DNA from: Flavobacterium psychrophilum
GTDB lineage: Bacteria > Bacteroidota > Bacteroidia > Flavobacteriales > Flavobacteriaceae
NCBI GenBank assembly: GCA_943325515.2
Contig: CALPPS020000002.1
Location: 6,680-70,679, forward strand
Direction of reading: 5' to 3'
DNA length: 64,000 bases
Shown here: positions 20,375-29,168 of the stretch, one piece after another
Position numbering within the stretch: the stretch's first letter is position 1
How the letters are laid out: every line of letters starts with the position of its first letter
The notes under the pieces: generated by a model
The model's input: the letters and a program-made list of their open reading frames with translations, nothing else
Database searches by the model: none
Told to the model about the DNA's origin: nothing
Translations under genes and position numbers: made by a program

Positions 20375-20927
20375 TCTAGAAAAACAATTGGATTTTTATT
20401 GATGTAATTTAACTTCTTCTTTTAGTTATAAAATGCTTTCTTTACTTGACTTTTTTTCAAATTCAAATTTTTCTGCAATAACTTTTTGGACATTAAAAAA
20501 ACCGTTAGAATTTTCATTGAATGTATTGATGAAAATTTGATCTTAGTCATTTTAAACTGCTGAAAACAGCAACATCTGCCTTGCATTTTTAAAAATTATT
20601 GCAAATCTTGGTCTTAATTTTTAATCTACATTAAATCATTTTTTAATCTAAACGAAATTTAATTAGTTGGCAATTCTATAATTTGGCCAAAGTTTATGTG
20701 TACGAAATATAATTTTTAATTATTTTAAAAAACCATTGGATATAATTATTTAAGTAAAAGAATTGAAACTTTATTTTTACAATTATGCAACTAGTTTAAA
20801 ATTAGAAAAAATACGCTAAAACATTTGAAAGTTTAAAAAAAGAATTTGCTGTATCTTTAAATTCAATACATCAATAAATTGATTTTAATAAAAAACTACA
20901 CCCGAGGTTCACTAAAAATTAAAACAA
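20375..20927. other. 553-bp non-coding region before the CotH pair
   Basis: Very AT-rich, with no frame that looks coding and no exact TAnnTTTG element close to the CotH start. Two small hairpins are visible: arms 20509-20517/20529-20537 (9 bp) and 20558-20562/20567-20571 (5 bp, AAAA loop); neither has a T-tract. The last 27 bp (GGTTCACTAAAAATT region) resemble the leader of the second CotH gene at 23078-23098. It could hold a long 5' leader or unrecognised promoter for the cluster. Confidence 0.6.
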
Positions 20928-23006
20928 ATGAAAAAAAGAATTTTTTTGAGTTATAAAAAGTACCTATTTATACTTTTTTTGCTGTTATCAGTACATAGTA
21001 ATTCACAAACCTTTACCGATAGCAACTTGCCTATTATTGTCATCACTACGGATATGAATCCGGCTACCGCTTTACCCTATGAAATAGTCGATGATCCGAG
21101 AGTTCTTGGAAATATGAAAATCATTAGGCACCCTGACGGTGGTAGAAATTATATGACTGACATCAATAATGCAGCTTATTTAAATTATAATGGTCGGTTA
21201 AGTATTGAATTGAGAGGTACAGCATCACAGTTTTTTGTTGATAAAAAGGGGTATGGATTGACTACATTATTGCCTGATAATGTGAGTAACAACAATGTGA
21301 GTTTACTGGGTATGCCTTCTGAAAACGATTGGATTTTTAATGGATTAGCTTTTGATGCTTCGTTGGTGAGAGATTATTTGGCTTATAATACTTCTCGACA
21401 GATGGGTAATTATGCCACTAGAACAGCGTATTTTGAATTAGTCATCAACGGAGATTACAAAGGTTTATATATACTACAAGAGAAAATTAAGGACGATTCT
21501 AACCGAGTAAATGTTATAGAAATAGCCTCAACAGATAATTCGGGTGATAATCTAACAGGTGGTTACATAACAAAAGCAGATAGGACGACAATAGATGACC
21601 CTACTGAAACTTCAGCCTGGACAGACATTCCCCATGAGGGTAATGATGTTAATTATGTACATCATTTACCCAAGCCAGAAGATGTTACTGTAGAACAAGA
21701 CAATTATATTCACAATCAGTTCGTTATTTTTCAATCGGCTATATCAGCAAATGATTCTAGCCTATCTATAGGTTATCCCAGTCTAATTGATATCCCCACA
21801 TTTATTGATTTTATGCTCTGCAACGAAATAATGGCAAACAAAGATGCCTATGCTGCAAGTACTTACTTTCATAAAGACCGAAATGGGAAACTGCGAGCTG
21901 GACCTATTTGGGATTTTAATTTATCTTTAGGATATGATTTGCCTTTTTGGGGAGTGCCAAATCAAAGTCTAGTTGATACATGGCAATTTTCTGATAGTAA
22001 TCAAGGATCTAAGTTCTGGAAAGATTTATTTGATAATGCTATTTTTAAATGTTATTTATCGAAACGTTTTCATGAATTAACGCAACCCGGACAACCCATG
22101 AATGCAGCTTATTTAAATACATTTATTGACAATACAATTTCTTCAATAAGCGAAGCCATGGTTAGGGAAAATCAAAGGTGGAATACAATACCCAATAATC
22201 CACTTGAAATTGCAACAATTAAAACGTTTATTTCAAACAGAATTGCATGGATGACCGATAATTTAGGAAGTTTTAGCAATTGTTCTAATGTTGTAGTTCC
22301 GCCATTGGTTATCACTAAAATCAATTATAATCCGGCAACTTCTGTTAGTTTTCCAGTAAGCAGTGACCAAGAATTTATTGAAATTACAAATACTGGTTCG
22401 GCAACGGTAAACCTTTCTGGGGTTTATTTTAAAGAACTTGGACTAACGTATCAATTCCCATATAATTCAACTATTTCTGGAAATTCAAGTTTATATTTAT
22501 GTGCTAATGCTGCTGTTTTTCAAGCTAAAAATGGTTTCGCCGCTTTCGGACAATATTCTAGAAATTTATCTAATAAATCTCAAAATCTTGTCCTTGTTGA
22601 TGCTTTTGGTAATTTGATAGACAAGGTCCAGTATTTTGATTCGGCTCCTTGGCCAACAGCCCCTGATGGCACAGGAAGTTATTTGCAATTAACGAGTACT
22701 AGTTTAGATAATAATTTGGCTTCAAGTTGGGTGGCGAGCTCTGCCTCATTAAATGTAAATGAGGTTAATAACGACAATTCGATGATTGTGATTTATCCGA
22801 ATCCTGCCAAAAATATTGTAACAATTAGTTCATCAATAAATATTGATTCTATTAAAATAATTGATGTTTCTGGAAAACAATTAATGACATCAAAAGTTAA
22901 CACAAACGAAACTTCAGTAGATATTTCAAACCTGTCAGCCGGTATTTACTTTGTTAAAGTTTACAGCGCATTTGGTATAAAAACGGAAAAGGTAGTCAAA
23001 GAATAA
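20928..23006 (+). CDS. CotH kinase-like protein with lamin-tail and T9SS sorting domains (copy 1)
   Basis: 692-residue exported protein. A signal peptide (about 1-26) is followed by a CotH-kinase domain (about 50-430): LRGTASQ with KK, then GMPSENDW, DASLVRDYLAYN, ELVINGDYKGLY and LQEKIK, and the metal-site-like motif WDFN with D329. A lamin-tail domain spans about 460-600 (EFIEITNTGSATVNLSG). A type IX secretion sorting domain ends it (YPNPAKN, then SAGIYFVKV and a Lys/Glu tail). CotH of Bacillus is a protein kinase for spore-coat proteins; here a surface-anchored or secreted product is expected. The second Asp of the family's frequent WDFD motif is Asn in this copy. Activity is unproven. 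Confidence 0.9.
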   Translation: MKKRIFLSYKKYLFILFLLLSVHSNSQTFTDSNLPIIVITTDMNPATALPYEIVDDPRVLGNMKIIRHPDGGRNYMTDINNAAYLNYNGRLSIELRGTASQFFVDKKGYGLTTLLPDNVSNNNVSLLGMPSENDWIFNGLAFDASLVRDYLAYNTSRQMGNYATRTAYFELVINGDYKGLYILQEKIKDDSNRVNVIEIASTDNSGDNLTGGYITKADRTTIDDPTETSAWTDIPHEGNDVNYVHHLPKPEDVTVEQDNYIHNQFVIFQSAISANDSSLSIGYPSLIDIPTFIDFMLCNEIMANKDAYAASTYFHKDRNGKLRAGPIWDFNLSLGYDLPFWGVPNQSLVDTWQFSDSNQGSKFWKDLFDNAIFKCYLSKRFHELTQPGQPMNAAYLNTFIDNTISSISEAMVRENQRWNTIPNNPLEIATIKTFISNRIAWMTDNLGSFSNCSNVVVPPLVITKINYNPATSVSFPVSSDQEFIEITNTGSATVNLSGVYFKELGLTYQFPYNSTISGNSSLYLCANAAVFQAKNGFAAFGQYSRNLSNKSQNLVLVDAFGNLIDKVQYFDSAPWPTAPDGTGSYLQLTSTSLDNNLASSWVASSASLNVNEVNNDNSMIVIYPNPAKNIVTISSSINIDSIKIIDVSGKQLMTSKVNTNETSVDISNLSAGIYFVKVYSAFGIKTEKVVKE

Positions 23007-23098
23007 TTATTGCTATTGCTGAAACTGTTTTAAATTTCTAGAAAAAAAATCAAAATAAAACATAAGTATACCCATCGGGTTCACTAAAATTAATACAA

Positions 23099-25153
23099 AT
23101 GAAAAAAAGAATTTTTTTGAGTTATGAAAAGTATCTATTTATTCTTTTTTTGCTGTTATCAGCATATAGTAATTCACAAACATTTACCGATAGTAGCTTG
23201 CCTATTATTGTTATCACAACAGATGTAAATCCGGCTACAGCTTCACCCTATGAAATAGTCGATGATCCGAGGGTTTTAGGAAATATGAAAATCATTAAGC
23301 ACCCTGACGGTGGTAGAAATTATATGACTGATATCAATAATGCAGCTTATTTGAATTATAATGGGCGTATTAGTATTGAGTTTAGAGGTTCTTCATCACA
23401 GTGGCTAGATAAAAAAGCGTATGGATTGACTACATTGATGGCTGATAATGTTAATAACAACAATGTGAGTTTACTAGGAATGCCTTCTGAGAACGATTGG
23501 ATTTTAAATGGATTAGCTTTTGATGCTTCGTTGGTAAGAGATTATTTGGCATACAATATTTCACGACAGATGGGTAATTATGCTTCTAGAACAGCCTATT
23601 TTGAATTGGTTATTAATGGAGACTATAGAGGTTTATATCTATTACAAGAGAAAATAAAGGCCGATACTAACCGAGTAAATGTTGTAAAAATAACTTCTTC
23701 AGATACTATGGGCGACAATTTAACGGGTGGCTATATAACAAAAGCTGATAGAACAAATGGAACTGATCCTGCAGTTTGGATAGATATTCCCTATTATAGT
23801 GCTAATGTTGAATATAGACATGAATTACCCCAACCTGAAAATGCAACTGTAGAACAAGACAATTATATTCACGATAAATTCACTATGTTCCAATCGGCTA
23901 TAACAGATAATGACTCAAGCCTATTTTCGGGTTACCCTGCTATAATTGATATACCTACTTTTATTGATTTTATGCTCTGCAGTGAATTAATATCTAGTTC
24001 AGATGCCTATCAGTATAGTACTTATTTTCACAAAGACCGTAATGGGAAGTTAAGGGCTGGACCAATATGGGATTGTAATTTGACTTTAGGATATGATTTT
24101 TTTGATCGTAGTGTAGTAGATCAATGGCAATTTTCTAATAGTGATAATATAGGATCAATGTTCTGGACAGATTTATTTAACAATGCTATTTTTAAATGTT
24201 ATTTATCAAAACGTTTTCACGAATTAACGCAACCAGGACAACCCATGAATGCAGCTTATTTAAATACATTTATTGACAATACAATTTCTTCAATAAGCGA
24301 AGCCATGGTTAGGGAAAATCAAAGGTGGAATACAATACCCAATAATCCACTTGAAATTGCTACAATTAAAACGTTTATTTCAAACAGAATTGCATGGATG
24401 ACCGATAATTTAGGAAACTTTAGCGATTGTTCAAATGTTGCAGTTCCGCCACTGGTTATTACTAAAATCAATTATAATCCGGCAACTTCTGTTAGTTTTC
24501 CAGTAAGCAGTGACCAAGAATTTATTGAAATTACAAATACTGGTTCGGCAACGGTAAACCTTTCTGGGGTTTATTTTAAAGAACTTGGACTAACGTATCA
24601 ATTTCCCTACAATTCAACTATTTCTGGAAATTCAAGTTTATATTTATGTGCTAATTCTAGCGTTTTTCAAGCTAAAAATGGTTTCGCCGCTTTCGGACAA
24701 TATACTAGAAATTTATCTAATAAATCTCAAAATCTTGTCCTTGTCGATGCTTTTGGTAATTTGATAGATAAGGTTGAATATTTTGATTCGGCTCCTTGGC
24801 CAACAGCAGCGGATGGCACCGGAAGTTTTTTGCAATTAACGAGTACTAGTTTAGATAATAATTTGGCTTCAAGTTGGGTGGCGAGCTCTGCCTCATTAAA
24901 TGTAAATGAGGTTAATAACGACAATTCGAGGATTGTAATTTATCCAAATCCTACCAAAAATATTGTAACAATTAGTTCATCAATAAATATTGATTCTATT
25001 GAGATAATTGATATTTCTAGCAAACAATTAATGACTACAAAAGTTAATACAAACGAAACTTCAGTAGATATTTCAAACCTGTCAGCCGGTATTTACTTTG
25101 TTAAAGTTTACAGCGAATTTGGTGTAAAAACCGAAAAGATTATGAAAGAATAA
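23099..25153 (+). CDS. CotH kinase-like protein with lamin-tail and T9SS sorting domains (copy 2)
   Basis: 684-residue tandem paralogue of the preceding gene, with the same layout: signal peptide, CotH-kinase domain (FRGSSSQ with DKK, GMPSENDW, LQEKIK), WDCN with D325, lamin-tail domain and C-terminal T9SS sorting domain. The first 430 residues have diverged noticeably, while the end of the kinase domain and most of the lamin-tail region are nearly identical at the DNA level. The leader (GGTTCACTAAAAT before the ATG) is also shared. WDCN replaces the WDFN of copy 1, so both lack the second acidic residue. The 92-nt gap has no terminator. Confidence 0.9.
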   Translation: MKKRIFLSYEKYLFILFLLLSAYSNSQTFTDSSLPIIVITTDVNPATASPYEIVDDPRVLGNMKIIKHPDGGRNYMTDINNAAYLNYNGRISIEFRGSSSQWLDKKAYGLTTLMADNVNNNNVSLLGMPSENDWILNGLAFDASLVRDYLAYNISRQMGNYASRTAYFELVINGDYRGLYLLQEKIKADTNRVNVVKITSSDTMGDNLTGGYITKADRTNGTDPAVWIDIPYYSANVEYRHELPQPENATVEQDNYIHDKFTMFQSAITDNDSSLFSGYPAIIDIPTFIDFMLCSELISSSDAYQYSTYFHKDRNGKLRAGPIWDCNLTLGYDFFDRSVVDQWQFSNSDNIGSMFWTDLFNNAIFKCYLSKRFHELTQPGQPMNAAYLNTFIDNTISSISEAMVRENQRWNTIPNNPLEIATIKTFISNRIAWMTDNLGNFSDCSNVAVPPLVITKINYNPATSVSFPVSSDQEFIEITNTGSATVNLSGVYFKELGLTYQFPYNSTISGNSSLYLCANSSVFQAKNGFAAFGQYTRNLSNKSQNLVLVDAFGNLIDKVEYFDSAPWPTAADGTGSFLQLTSTSLDNNLASSWVASSASLNVNEVNNDNSRIVIYPNPTKNIVTISSSINIDSIEIIDISSKQLMTTKVNTNETSVDISNLSAGIYFVKVYSEFGVKTEKIMKE

Positions 25154-25296
25154 CTATTGCTAACGTTGCAACTGTTTTCAATTTGCAGCATACTTTTTTG
25201 TAAATATAACGAGGTGCGTTTTAATTTTTGTTTAACATTTTATAATTGATTTATCTAATATAAATATATCTTTAACTTTTATAAAACTCTTTAATT
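25154..25296. other. Gap between the CotH pair and the lipoprotein gene
   Basis: 143 bp, AT-rich. TATCTTTA at about 25267 resembles but does not match a -7 element. No terminator hairpin is seen, so transcription may continue from the CotH genes into the next four genes. Confidence 0.4.
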
Positions 25297-25686
25297 ATGC
25301 TTAAAAAACTTATTTCTTTAGCTTTTCTAATTATCCTTGGCTTGTCTTCTTGTTCACATGATGAAGGTTATGGCGGTTTAGCTACAATAAAAGGAAAAAT
25401 TTATGGCCAAAATTTTAACAACAGTGGAACACTTGTCAATCAAGGCTATCTTGGAGGAGTTAAGGTATACATAAGCCAACACAATAATCCTAGTTATTTT
25501 GACAGTATGGATTCAGCTTATGACGGCACTTTCAAATTTGATTATTTGTATACCGGGACTTATGATATTTGGGTTTACGGGGATTGCGATTATTGCAGTT
25601 GGGATCAAATTTATGTACTAAAGACCATTAAAATTAATTCCAAAAAAGCTAAAGTAGTAACAGAAGATTTTATTATTGCATTTTAA
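25297..25686 (+). CDS. Small lipoprotein with a carboxypeptidase-regulatory-like fold (hypothetical)
   Basis: 129 residues. The signal peptide ends in the lipobox LSSC with Cys19, so the product should be a lipoprotein. The rest resembles a single prealbumin-like beta-sandwich: GKIYGQ, GVKVYIS, AYDGTFKFDYLYTGTYDIWVYG. This is the pattern of CarboxypepD_reg or SdrD-B-type repeats. An aromatic Cys-containing loop (GDCDYCSW, about 99-106) is notable. I do not recognise a named family. It is the first of four closely spaced genes and may be an envelope partner of the CotH proteins. Confidence 0.72.
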   Translation: MLKKLISLAFLIILGLSSCSHDEGYGGLATIKGKIYGQNFNNSGTLVNQGYLGGVKVYISQHNNPSYFDSMDSAYDGTFKFDYLYTGTYDIWVYGDCDYCSWDQIYVLKTIKINSKKAKVVTEDFIIAF

Positions 25687-25698
25687 TAAATCCTAAAT

Positions 25699-26433
25699 AT
25701 GTTGGAACTTATAGATTCTATGAATACCGTCTGCTTATCCGAACTTGACCAAGTTGCCTTAATGAACCGCATAGACAATAAATACGTGCTCGATGCCCAA
25801 CAAGTAGCCCTAATTATTCCATTAATACAAAACCATTACAAGGTTTTAGAAATTGAGAAAAACAAAATTTTTACCTATGAAAATAACTATTTCGATACTC
25901 CAAACCTACAATTTTACTACGATCACCATAATGGATATTTAAATCGTTTAAAAGTAAGAGGAAGAAAATATAAAGAAAGCGAGACTAGTTATTTTGAAAT
26001 AAAAAGAAAAGAGAACATCGATCGCACTGCCAAAATAAGAGAAATAACAACAGATTTAATTTCAGAAATTGATGAAAATAGAAAAAAGATAATTCAAAGC
26101 CATTACAGAAAAAATATAGCCGATTTAAAAATAGTACTTCAAAATAAATTTAACAGAATCACTTTTACTAATAACGAACACACAGAACGCATAACACTTG
26201 ATTTTAACATCCAATTTTCAGATAACAACCAACAAAAAACCTTTACAAATTTTTTTGTACTCGAAATCAAACAGTCGAAATCGAATGGGCGTTCCATAAT
26301 TAGCAATACGCTGAAAAAAAATAACATACGCGAACAAAGCTTCAGTAAATACATTTTTGGAGTTATTGTTTTAAAAGAACACATTAGAAAAAACAACTTT
26401 TTGTCATTAATCAAAAAAATAAATAAATTATAA
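25699..26433 (+). CDS. VTC-domain (polyphosphate polymerase-type) protein
   Basis: 244-residue soluble protein with the triphosphate-tunnel fold of yeast VTC4. Tunnel-lining charges are present: R24 and K28 in NRIDNKYVL, R83/K85/R87 in RLKVRGR, E100/K102/K104 in FEIKRK, R164 and D168 in ERITLDFN, and E189/K191 in VLEIKQSK. No SPX domain or membrane segment is present, unlike the eukaryotic protein. The complete basic tunnel suggests it binds or makes polyphosphate from ATP; this is family-based inference. It is followed after 2 nt by the DUF4956 gene, its usual genomic partner. Confidence 0.88.
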   Translation: MLELIDSMNTVCLSELDQVALMNRIDNKYVLDAQQVALIIPLIQNHYKVLEIEKNKIFTYENNYFDTPNLQFYYDHHNGYLNRLKVRGRKYKESETSYFEIKRKENIDRTAKIREITTDLISEIDENRKKIIQSHYRKNIADLKIVLQNKFNRITFTNNEHTERITLDFNIQFSDNNQQKTFTNFFVLEIKQSKSNGRSIISNTLKKNNIREQSFSKYIFGVIVLKEHIRKNNFLSLIKKINKL

Positions 26434-26435
26434 AA

Positions 26436-27068
26436 ATGAATGATCATACTAACCCTCTGTTTAATCTAAACGAATTTGGCATAAGAACAACAATTAATTT
26501 AATAGCTGTATTGATTTTAGTTGGACTCATTTACTACCCTAAACATAGAAATAAAGACTTTATATTCACTTTTGTCCTTTTCAATGTCATCAATTTTATG
26601 ATCTGCTTCTTGTTAGGTTCTGCCAAAATTAATATGGGATTTGCTTTTGGTTTGTTTGCCATCTTTTCCATAATTAAATACCGAACCATAGTGGTTTCTA
26701 TCAAAGACATGGGGTATTTCTTTGTGTGTGTGGCATTAGGTATGCTAAATTCGTTAGCCAATTCCAATGATAACTTTATGGTAGTAATCATTTGTAATTT
26801 AGTTATTTTAACATTGACTTTTCTATTAGACAGACTCGATTTCATCAACAACGAAAATGTAAAAGAAATAATTTATGATAATGTGGAATTAATAAAACCC
26901 AATGTAAGAGAAGAATTAATTGCAGACCTAAAAGAAAGAACCGGCTTAGAGATTCATAAAGTTGAAATAGTCTCTATTAATTACCTAAAAGATATTGTTT
27001 TATTGAAAGCATTCTACTATTCAAAAGAAAGCCAAAGTGCATTACCTACGATTTCTGACAACGATTAA
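26436..27068 (+). CDS. DUF4956 integral membrane protein
   Basis: 210 residues with about four transmembrane helices (roughly 17-36, 43-62, 92-108, 113-131) and a cytosolic C-terminal domain (about 135-210). The diagnostic family segment GLFAIFSIIKYRT lies between helices 2 and 3. The C-terminal region (LKERTGLEIHKVEIVSINYL) is also characteristic. Function is not established. The tight coupling to the VTC-domain gene (2 nt) suggests it is the membrane part of the same machine, analogous to the transmembrane domain fused to VTC proteins in yeast; that is inference. Confidence 0.87.
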   Translation: MNDHTNPLFNLNEFGIRTTINLIAVLILVGLIYYPKHRNKDFIFTFVLFNVINFMICFLLGSAKINMGFAFGLFAIFSIIKYRTIVVSIKDMGYFFVCVALGMLNSLANSNDNFMVVIICNLVILTLTFLLDRLDFINNENVKEIIYDNVELIKPNVREELIADLKERTGLEIHKVEIVSINYLKDIVLLKAFYYSKESQSALPTISDND

Positions 27069-27070
27069 GG

Positions 27071-27838
27071 ATGGATGTAAATAAAACCATAAATCAAATT
27101 AAGTGTTTATTTTTAATAATCTTTTCAATATCAACTTATGGACAACTCTCCCCTAAGAAAGATTTTTCAACTTGGAGTTGGATTCAATTAGAAAAGAAAA
27201 CATTCAAACACCAGTATGTAAGCTTCCAATATCAGGCTAGGTATGATAATTACGGATTTACATTTAATCGCAGCAACTTTTATCTTGGTTATGGCATTGA
27301 ATACTTTAAAAAATTTAATACAGAGGTCGTCTACCAATTCAGCACTAGTTATAAAAAAGATGAACACACTTTTTTTGTGGGAACGACCTATAAATGTAAA
27401 CTTTTTAAAAAAACATCACTTTTTTTAAGAACAGCCGTTCAGCATACGCAAAACTATTTCACAGGAGATCCTATCGCCGACAAACCATTAACTGAATGGA
27501 GAAACCGTATTCGTTTGTCTTATAGTTTAAATAAGAATTATAACGCGACTCTATCAGCCGAACCGTATTTGGCATTTGATCGACTGCATCCAGGTCATAT
27601 TAGTAGAATTCGTTACGTGAGCCAACTCAACTTTAGATACAATAAGTTTAATAACCTGTCATTGTTTTATTTGATTGAGCCCGATGTTATAACCTATAAA
27701 AGGCCCAATACAGATTATGTAATAGGAATCACCTATAGCATCAAGCTGCCAAATAAGTGGAAAGATTTTAATAAATTCTACCAGCGGTCAAATGCAGATA
27801 AAGATAAAGACCGCGATACCAAAGATTCCTATAATTAA
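27071..27838 (+). CDS. DUF2490 outer-membrane beta-barrel protein
   Basis: 255 residues with a signal peptide (about 1-32, ending in YGQ) and a series of alternating amphipathic beta strands rich in Tyr, Phe and Arg. It has the DUF2490 pattern of FSTWSWIQLEKK, YRSxY-like strands, EWRNRIRLSYS and RIRYVSQLNFRYN. It is probably an outer-membrane barrel of unknown activity. It lies 2 nt after the DUF4956 gene and closes the CotH/VTC cluster. A second DUF2490 protein heads the export operon at 50223. Confidence 0.82.
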   Translation: MDVNKTINQIKCLFLIIFSISTYGQLSPKKDFSTWSWIQLEKKTFKHQYVSFQYQARYDNYGFTFNRSNFYLGYGIEYFKKFNTEVVYQFSTSYKKDEHTFFVGTTYKCKLFKKTSLFLRTAVQHTQNYFTGDPIADKPLTEWRNRIRLSYSLNKNYNATLSAEPYLAFDRLHPGHISRIRYVSQLNFRYNKFNNLSLFYLIEPDVITYKRPNTDYVIGITYSIKLPNKWKDFNKFYQRSNADKDKDRDTKDSYN

Positions 27839-27877: not shown

Positions 27878-28213
27878 TTATTTTTTTAATTGTAATTTCT
27901 CTGCAAAATAATCACAAAAATCCTTCATAGTATCCGCCATTTTTTCATCTGCGGTAGCTCGTTGAAATGTATCTGCCATGGCAACTAAAGTTTGATGGAA
28001 AAATAGTTTCATTTCATCTACAGGCATGTCTTTTGTCCATAAATCAATACGAAGAGTTTCTTTTACATTACTATCCCAAATGGAAAGCATTATAGCTTTT
28101 GCCTCTTCATGATCTACTCCACCCTCTTGTGCTGTCCAATTTAGTTTTTCTGGAACTCTATTTTCATCTAATTCTATAAGAAATTTTATTTCGGATTTAA
28201 TGGTATTACTCAT
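27878..28213 (-). CDS. gldC: Gliding motility protein GldC
   Basis: 111-residue soluble protein matching GldC of Flavobacterium johnsoniae in size, sequence pattern (SEIKFLIELDENRVPEKLNWTA then MKLFFHQTLVAMADTF) and position after gldB. GldC is not strictly essential for gliding but improves it. The start is ATG at 28213, overlapping the gldB stop by 8 nt (ATGAGTAA); a longer frame to 28258 would extend deep into gldB and adds residues unlike the family. Confidence 0.93.
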   Translation of the reverse strand: MSNTIKSEIKFLIELDENRVPEKLNWTAQEGGVDHEEAKAIMLSIWDSNVKETLRIDLWTKDMPVDEMKLFFHQTLVAMADTFQRATADEKMADTMKDFCDYFAEKLQLKK

Positions 28214-29168
28214 TCTTCTTTGGTTTATATTTTGATTTTTCAAATATTTGCTTGGCATCCATTTTTAACATGTTCTGTAGGCTACTTTCGTTATGTTCCA
28301 TAAATGAACGAACGATTTGCCATCCAACCCATTGTCCTATTCTTCCTGGTGATTCATTATCAATTTCAAGATAAAATTTTGAAAATGGCGCAAGATTTAT
28401 GAAGCGATTTGGTAATCTTGAATCAGTGTCAAAAAGCAGATTATCATCAATAAAAAAACGCCACATATAGCTTTCGTTTTCTTGACACCAAGTAATTTGT
28501 TCTGGCTTGTATCCAATTCTCTCAGCATCAGAGTAATTTGGAAGCAACAAATCTTTTAAATACAATTGTTTACCATAATAAATCATACTTGACAATAATG
28601 TTTTATCACTTGGTGGTGGAACTTTTGTCAATGCGAAACTTGATACAATATCTGGCATCATTTGTCTTTCCTCGAAATTCTGTTTTAAATATTCTGGAAA
28701 TTGATAAAATTTATGATTAGTTCCAAGGTACAATTCAAGAGCAATAATAAGTTTGTCATTAGCATAAATAGCCTTACTATTATAATCCATTTCAGCGATA
28801 ACAGTAAATACTTTTGGAGTGATAGTTTCGGGAAAATAATATTTTATATGTTTGAATAAATTTTCAATTTCAGTAGTTTGCTTATCGAAATTTGGGTATT
28901 TTTTTTGTACTTCATTATAAAGCGCTCTCCAATCTTTGTTTTGTAATTTATCTATCCAAACTTTATCATCATATTTATTCGAAAAGAAAAAAGGATATTT
29001 GGCTTTCAAACTCGCTAAGTCTTCTGGTTTTGTTTCGAAAAAAGCTTTATCAAAACGATCAACACTTAATTCAATAGGAATTTGTTCAACATCCTTTTCA
29101 ATTTTTGATTTTTTATCGCAAGAAATCAATGAAAATAGTAGAAGGTAAATCAAAAAATATTTTAACAT
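28206..29168 (-). CDS. gldB: Gliding motility lipoprotein GldB
   Basis: 320-residue lipoprotein with a signal peptide ending at Cys17 (LISC). The mature part has the GldB features, including IELSVDRFDKAFFETKPEDLASLK near the start, YFPETITPKVFTVIAEMDYNS, and late MWRFFIDDNLLF and PGRIGQWVGWQIVRSFM. GldB is required for gliding in F. johnsoniae; it is an envelope protein of unknown biochemical role. It is co-transcribed with gldC (8-nt overlap) and divergent from nadE, the same arrangement as in related flavobacteria. Confidence 0.94.
   Translation of the reverse strand: MLKYFLIYLLLFSLISCDKKSKIEKDVEQIPIELSVDRFDKAFFETKPEDLASLKAKYPFFFSNKYDDKVWIDKLQNKDWRALYNEVQKKYPNFDKQTTEIENLFKHIKYYFPETITPKVFTVIAEMDYNSKAIYANDKLIIALELYLGTNHKFYQFPEYLKQNFEERQMMPDIVSSFALTKVPPPSDKTLLSSMIYYGKQLYLKDLLLPNYSDAERIGYKPEQITWCQENESYMWRFFIDDNLLFDTDSRLPNRFINLAPFSKFYLEIDNESPGRIGQWVGWQIVRSFMEHNESSLQNMLKMDAKQIFEKSKYKPKKNE

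Follow-up and report, generated by a model that had tools for sequence, protein, structure and literature searches.

Organization of the gene cluster

The stretch of Flavobacterium psychrophilum DNA analyzed here (64,000 nucleotides [nt] of contig CALPPS020000002.1; hereafter the window) carries, at positions 20928..27838, a cluster of six open reading frames (ORFs) that combines two CotH-type kinases with a lipoprotein, a VTC domain protein, a DUF4956 membrane protein and a DUF2490 protein, and which we consider here as a candidate system for the synthesis and export of polyphosphate. An initial annotation of this DNA had placed all six ORFs on the plus strand, with gaps of 12, 2 and 2 nt among the last four, and both the positions and the gaps were borne out. 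The domains it had assigned were likewise recovered by Pfam, which finds CotH in both large proteins as well as VTC, DUF4956 and DUF2490, each above the curated cut-off. For the CotH domains (PF08757) the scores are 156.9 and 160.6 bits against a cut-off of 23.8, and for the VTC domain (PF09359) 86.3 bits against a cut-off of 23. The six genes, with protein lengths in amino acids (aa), are as follows.

20928..23006, + strand: CotH-type kinase 1, 692 aa; signal peptide, CotH domain, lamin-tail domain and type A sorting tail of the type IX secretion system (T9SS) (Pfam, NCBIfam)
23099..25153, + strand: CotH-type kinase 2, 684 aa; tandem duplicate of kinase 1, with 88% DNA identity (Pfam, NCBIfam)
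25297..25686, + strand: small lipoprotein, 129 aa; Cys19 in the lipobox, Cys pair Cys97/Cys100; without a Pfam family
25699..26433, + strand: VTC domain protein, 244 aa; predicted Vtc4-type polyphosphate polymerase fold, no membrane helix
26436..27068, + strand: DUF4956 protein of the inner membrane, 210 aa; five helices predicted, with an alpha/beta domain at the C terminus
27071..27838, + strand: DUF2490 protein, 255 aa; predicted basic outer-membrane barrel, KdgM-like

VTC and DUF4956 are linked across phyla

A genome scan for DUF4956 yielded 42 loci, from Flavobacterium, Emticicia, Cytophagales, Chitinophagales, Sphingobacteriales, Ignavibacteria, Kapaibacteria and unplaced Bacteroidota, and VTC is present in 33 of them. 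For 34 of the 35 VTC matches, DUF4956 follows VTC on the same strand at a distance of at most 1 kb; the remaining match is a piece of a VTC gene that is apparently split over two contigs of genome G010. The same near-absolute linkage is seen in a phylum sample of 296 Bacteroidota genomes, of which 48 encode VTC, 74 DUF4956 and 107 CotH (raw counts, with kinship and genome size ignored). All 48 VTC genomes also encode DUF4956, which is found within 1 kb and on the same strand at 51 of the 55 VTC places and at a distance of 2.7-2.9 kb, again on the same strand, at three more; the last place is a fragment. Co-occurrence of the three families beyond close relatives had been set beforehand, in the initial annotation, as a test of its proposal, and such co-occurrence was found: CotH is present in 47 of the 48 VTC genomes versus 60 of the 248 genomes without VTC (raw counts that ignore kinship). 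It is also encoded in 20 of the 26 genomes that have DUF4956 but not VTC, and in 40 of the 222 that have neither. Presence is therefore roughly nested, with VTC inside DUF4956 and mostly inside CotH.

Beyond the Bacteroidota, the evidence comes from plasmid records, control genomes and cited papers. All 16 plasmid VTC genes adjoin DUF4956 (nine in Aminobacter, two each in Shinella and Deinococcus, and one each in Nitratireductor, Nonomuraea and Streptomyces), and a 17th plasmid DUF4956 record, from Pseudoalteromonas, has a VTC remnant beside DUF4956. Three of the 14 control genomes, those of Bacteroides ihuae, Corynebacterium glutamicum and Methanosarcina acetivorans, contain both VTC and DUF4956; CotH is found in the latter two and in Bacillus subtilis, and is absent from B. 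ihuae. As an association, the result is solid: VTC and DUF4956 behave as a single unit across phyla, linked far more often than chance would give.

The adjacency of CotH, polymerase and DUF4956 is already in print. A passage in PMC7112168 describes cotH, poly-phosphate polymerase, DUF4956 and DUF4832 genes adjoining the pel genes of streptococci and clostridia, with a related set in bifidobacteria, and suggests regulation of Pel by phosphorylation. These accessory genes share with the window the adjacency of CotH, polyphosphate polymerase and DUF4956, whereas the window has a lipoprotein and DUF2490 in place of DUF4832. Passages elsewhere place VTC and CotH genes in one Clostridium perfringens locus (PMC2879425) and list a Bacteroides thetaiotaomicron DUF4956-DUF2490 pair (BT3498-99) in an iron-response table (PMC10434189). 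Searches of the open-licence PMC literature turned up no account of what the VTC-DUF4956 unit does.

A predicted Vtc4-type polymerase and its membrane partner

The predicted fold of the window VTC protein is a Vtc4-type tunnel fold rather than that of another tunnel enzyme. The tunnel residues named in the initial annotation are correctly numbered, and in 40 homologues R24, K28, R83, K85, R87, E100, K102, E189 and K191 are invariant and K104 is nearly so. The catalytic residues K200, R264, R266, K281, E426, S457 and K458 of Vtc4 correspond to K28, R87, R89, K102, E189, S216 and K217 of the window protein, the equivalents at E189, S216 and K217 having been counted by hand in weak stretches of the alignment. 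Fold and tunnel residues together support the earlier proposal of a VTC4-like enzyme, at the level of a Vtc4-type polymerase domain. The eukaryotic VTC complex (Vtc4/Vtc3/Vtc1) has the same catalytic fold and tunnel residues and likewise pairs its polymerase with a membrane protein; a passage in PMC9911596 describes synthesis by yeast VTC as coupled to membrane translocation. In contrast to the eukaryotic complex, the 244-aa window protein has no SPX domain, its membrane part is a separate DUF4956 protein with no detected relation to the eukaryotic membrane domain, and window-type loci have outer-membrane or periplasmic partners, with secreted kinases alongside.

The DUF4956 protein had been described as having four helices, which is the number of peaks given by a hydropathy scan alone. 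Its structure model instead has five long helices, followed by a C-terminal beta-alpha-beta-beta domain (predicted local distance difference test score 75.9; predicted template modeling score [pTM] 0.59). Since basic residues lie near the loops between helices 1 and 2 and between helices 3 and 4, the sequence suggests a cytoplasmic C terminus. There was no convincing match for DUF4956 in the PDB, either by profile or by the model, whose pTM is only 0.59. The initial annotation had also suggested that VTC plus DUF4956 may be a split VTC4. The VTC membrane domain was absent among the best 25 of 37 families in the comparison with DUF4956, there was no PDB profile match, and no chain of the VTC complex appeared among the structure matches listed. 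As these comparisons gave no sign that DUF4956 is related to the VTC membrane domain, “split VTC4” is an analogy.

The VTC protein would not be the only source of polyphosphate in these cells. PPK1, sought in the 42-genome set, is present in 40 of the 42 DUF4956 genomes and in 32 of the 33 that also have VTC; because of this, VTC is probably a second polymerase with a special task and not the bulk polyphosphate maker. PPK1 and VTC have the same presumed product, although the PPK1 fold is unrelated to the VTC fold. In genomes G007, G009, G012, G014 and G020, PPK1 and VTC share a contig and are separated by about 32-50 kb, perhaps a conserved arrangement.

Envelope partners at VTC and DUF4956 loci

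The small lipoprotein is a conserved member of the operon: it precedes VTC in 24 of the 42 related loci, its lipobox Cys is invariant, and it carries a Cys pair (C97/C100). DUF2490 is encoded on the same strand and at most three genes from VTC in 28 of the 33 VTC loci of the 42-locus set, those without a nearby copy being L019, L025, L028, L029 and L037 (L037 ends within the DUF4956 gene). Pfam confirms the family in all 39 members scanned, 19 of which also match a general outer-membrane barrel family, and the DUF2490 profile matches the structure 4fqe of the oligogalacturonate porin KdgM (E 2.7e-4, positions 72-192 of 234). The pore of KdgM is lined with Arg. DUF2490 proteins are strongly basic, with a mean net charge of +12.8 (n = 39) compared with +0.8 in 293 control ORFs and +0.9 in 103 ORFs that look exported, and conserved basic residues are found at positions 144, 146, 179 and 181 of the window protein.

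In other Bacteroidota, DUF2490 is replaced by a protein of about 355 aa with a membrane anchor, encoded directly before VTC or after DUF4956. Twenty-three of these proteins form one BLAST-connected family with hydrophobic N termini; 12 of them match HlyD_3 and six HlyD_D23 at E 0.01 or better, and the family profile matches EmrA (1.2e-13) as well as AcrA and MacA (about 1e-8). At these loci, which are distinct from the window, an HlyD/EmrA-type match is combined with an N-terminal membrane helix. The HlyD-type adaptor and DUF2490 are two mutually exclusive envelope modules: across the 46 of 55 VTC places in which modules were counted (23 of these same loci having supplied the adaptor profile), 24 have the adaptor, 14 have DUF2490, none has both and eight have neither.

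DUF4956 loci without VTC have envelope neighbors as well: L083 encodes a Porin_O_P-family protein, and L030 and L031 each have a TonB-type barrel. Genes of similar length, known by length alone, occupy the position of these barrels in L032, L033, L035, L036 and L041. At L087, L088, L089, L093, L094, L096 and L099, again without VTC, DUF4956 is followed by a gene of 326-332 aa and then by one of 410-413 aa. The shorter gene belongs to the HlyD family in L087, the one scanned, while of the two longer genes scanned, that of L094 gave a weak outer-membrane efflux match below the cut-off and that of L087 gave no match. As a side observation, these seven loci resemble a tripartite export set with DUF4956 as the inner-membrane part. 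In L075, a Porin_O_P protein follows DUF4956 beside a VTC remnant.

The envelope neighbors of DUF4956 at loci that lack VTC point to a role for it as the inner-membrane component of an exporter. Export, which the initial annotation had also put forward, is well indicated by the neighboring genes, be it a KdgM-like basic barrel or an HlyD-type adaptor. The system would thereby resemble adaptor- or porin-based secretion (EmrA/MacA, KdgM), from which it would differ in having DUF4956 as its inner-membrane part and a phosphate polymer as its cargo.

The CotH-type kinase pair

Both window CotHs end in the type A sorting domain TIGR04183, as expected of T9SS cargo, and both contain a lamin-tail domain that the initial annotation had not described; from the sorting tail and the lamin-tail domain, we predict a cell-surface location. 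D306 and D329 are retained in both proteins and invariant among the 22 CotHs aligned, and this pair of putative catalytic Asp residues aligns to the CotH structure 5jd9 (profile match, E 2.6e-46). Their spacing of 23 residues equals that of D228 and D251 in B. subtilis CotH, to which they probably correspond; a passage in PMC7821199 describes the B. subtilis changes D228Q and D251A as inactive. The window proteins appear to share with the B. subtilis spore-coat kinase a kinase domain with both catalytic Asp residues, but they are predicted to be exported via the T9SS, carry a lamin-tail domain and do not reside in a spore. The two genes are 88% identical over 2,138 nt of DNA and have a leader in common, and are the product of a recent tandem duplication. 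In this region (window 20880-25200), the repeat unit takes in the sequence upstream of the genes, since the common leader (gttcacta...) precedes both start codons.

In 15 of the 33 VTC genomes of the 42-genome set, a CotH gene is found 10 kb or less from VTC, where about 0.5 genomes would be expected by chance, and 14 of these 15 genes are upstream of VTC on the same strand. This slot is filled by different subfamilies: genomes G005, G006, G011 and G013 have a window-type CotH on a separate contig and a linked-type CotH adjoining VTC, and L002 has a further, divergent CotH in the slot. This may reflect selection for some CotH at this site, or chance in the window genome. The underlying tree has 36 rows, for which 66 profile matches were filtered (E < 1e-50 and a WD.[DN] motif), identical proteins were entered once, and the two window CotHs were added. 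Left out were the VTC-linked CotH of L002, which has no WD.[DN] motif, and the linked CotHs of G010 and G027. The VTC-linked CotH L045 (G028) is unlabelled in the tree and clusters with linked Emticicia CotHs, while L071 is a member of the linked clade though itself not close to VTC.

A possible route for polyphosphate synthesis and export

We interpret the lipoprotein-VTC-DUF4956-DUF2490 operon, with a confidence that is evenly poised, as a unit that makes polyphosphate and exports it across the envelope, surface CotH being part of the same pathway. VTC would polymerize polyphosphate from ATP in the cytoplasm, and DUF4956 would keep VTC at the inner membrane and pass the chain across it. The basic DUF2490 barrel or, in other Bacteroidota, the HlyD-type adaptor would then carry the polymer outward, and surface-anchored CotH kinases may anchor, prime or consume it. 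Several observations weigh against this interpretation. DUF4956 has no recognized transporter relative among the matches listed in family, PDB profile and structure comparisons, and eight of the 46 VTC loci lack both envelope modules. The window DUF2490 has Q89 and T100 in place of two Arg residues found in 37 and 35 of the 39 members. In addition, CotH is absent from the 10 kb around VTC in 18 of the 33 genomes, and the window CotHs sit in a different clade of the tree from 11 VTC-linked CotHs.

The initial annotation had proposed polyphosphate as a possible phosphate donor or substrate for CotH. Co-occurrence of CotH with VTC is strong. A donor role is made less likely by the direction of dependence (in the phylum sample, 60 of the 107 CotH genomes lack VTC, while one of the 48 VTC genomes lacks CotH, as does the control genome of B. 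ihuae), by the limited share of VTC genomes with a nearby CotH (15 of 33) and by the subfamily of the window CotHs, which is not the one linked to VTC in relatives. A general role as CotH donor is unlikely for polyphosphate, given how often CotH occurs where VTC does not. The nested presence suggests instead that the VTC product needs CotH rather than the reverse, and our preferred reading is that CotH acts on the exported product or anchors it, rather than that polyphosphate serves CotH proteins everywhere as donor.

Other explanations differ in where the product would go, or in whether CotH belongs to the system at all. The polyphosphate made by VTC-DUF4956 might stay inside the cell as a membrane-bound phosphate or stress buffer, with DUF4956 as anchor or sensor and the envelope proteins serving phosphate uptake. 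The phosphate transporter and phytase-like protein near the locus in Nitratireductor, and the acid phosphatase and phosphonate transporter genes near that of Deinococcus QL22, fit a phosphate product in general and also fit storage; however, PPK1 is already present in nearly all DUF4956 genomes, HlyD-type adaptors belong to exporters, and secreted CotH accompanies VTC in 47 of 48 genomes, so we consider internal storage unlikely. It is more conceivable, if still doubtful, that the window CotH pair is an incidental neighbor, a recently duplicated surface protein that is expressed separately and has no connection with the VTC operon located 143 nt further downstream. This would agree with the pair's distinct subfamily and with the four relatives in which a window-type CotH sits on a different contig from the linked-type copy next to VTC. 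Against it stands the recurrent use of the same upstream slot by different subfamilies, at a frequency and in an orientation (14 of 15 upstream, same strand) well beyond the approximately 0.5 of 33 genomes expected by chance.

Alternatively, CotH, VTC and DUF4956 could regulate or decorate an exported glycan, which the adaptor or porin would carry. The pel-associated gene sets described in the passage of PMC7112168 and a chitin-synthase-like gene reported in PMC2879425 for the C. perfringens locus with VTC and CotH would be in line with such an accessory role, as would the transport of acidic oligosaccharides by KdgM. Conversely, no annotated glycosyltransferase occurs among the listed neighbors of five annotated plasmid VTC loci (no systematic glycosyltransferase search was made), and the scanned genes flanking the window cluster encode an EngB-type GTPase and GldB; we regard a glycan accessory as quite unlikely. 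More improbable still is a VTC protein that makes no polymer and acts as a different tunnel enzyme, such as a triphosphatase: the fold is common to triphosphatases and class IV adenylate cyclases, but the prediction for the window protein is of the Vtc4 type.

Returning to export, we tentatively put forward a dedicated trans-envelope machine, in which VTC polymerizes polyphosphate, DUF4956 passes it through the inner membrane, one of two interchangeable exits (an HlyD-type adaptor, or the lipoprotein together with a basic KdgM-like porin) leads it outward, and surface CotH kinases use the chain or attach it to surface proteins. If this is true, phosphoryl transfer outside the cell would not have to depend on ATP. 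To our knowledge, it is an open question how bacteria would place polyphosphate outside the cell, and likewise how secreted kinases work where ATP is scarce. A widespread, compact operon that joins a VTC-type polymerase, DUF4956, an envelope exit and secreted kinases makes both questions testable, and it allows roles to be proposed for DUF4956 and DUF2490, two Pfam families without assigned function.

Neighboring genes and related loci

Directly downstream of the window cluster, on the opposite strand, lies gldB (window 28206-29168), which encodes a gliding-motility lipoprotein and fits a T9SS-bearing host. Several related loci have further neighbors of note. In L083 (4116-8301), genes for an inositol-phosphate synthase, DUF4956, a Porin_O_P-family protein and CotH stand in a row, and the genome has a separate VTC-DUF4956 locus. 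On the Pseudoalteromonas plasmid (L075:7273-9651), a lamin-tail protein, the VTC remnant (a 104-aa frame), DUF4956 and a protein of a phosphate-selective porin family are encoded together. The alphaproteobacterial plasmid loci L077 (7330-11370), L076 and L078 have DUF4956-VTC followed by a phytase-like exported protein, and on the Nitratireductor plasmid a phosphate transporter gene is located between the two. In L081 (3412-6442) and L082 (5763-8871), DUF4956 is followed by a 341-aa exported protein of no assigned family and then by a 480-aa gene, whose product in L081 is a purple-acid-phosphatase-like protein. Finally, a protein with a PPDK_N (phosphoryl-transfer) domain adjoins a short DUF4956 on the opposite strand in both loci scanned (L084:3555-5429 and L092:6772-8667), and a gene of equal length takes this position in L085, L086 and L098.

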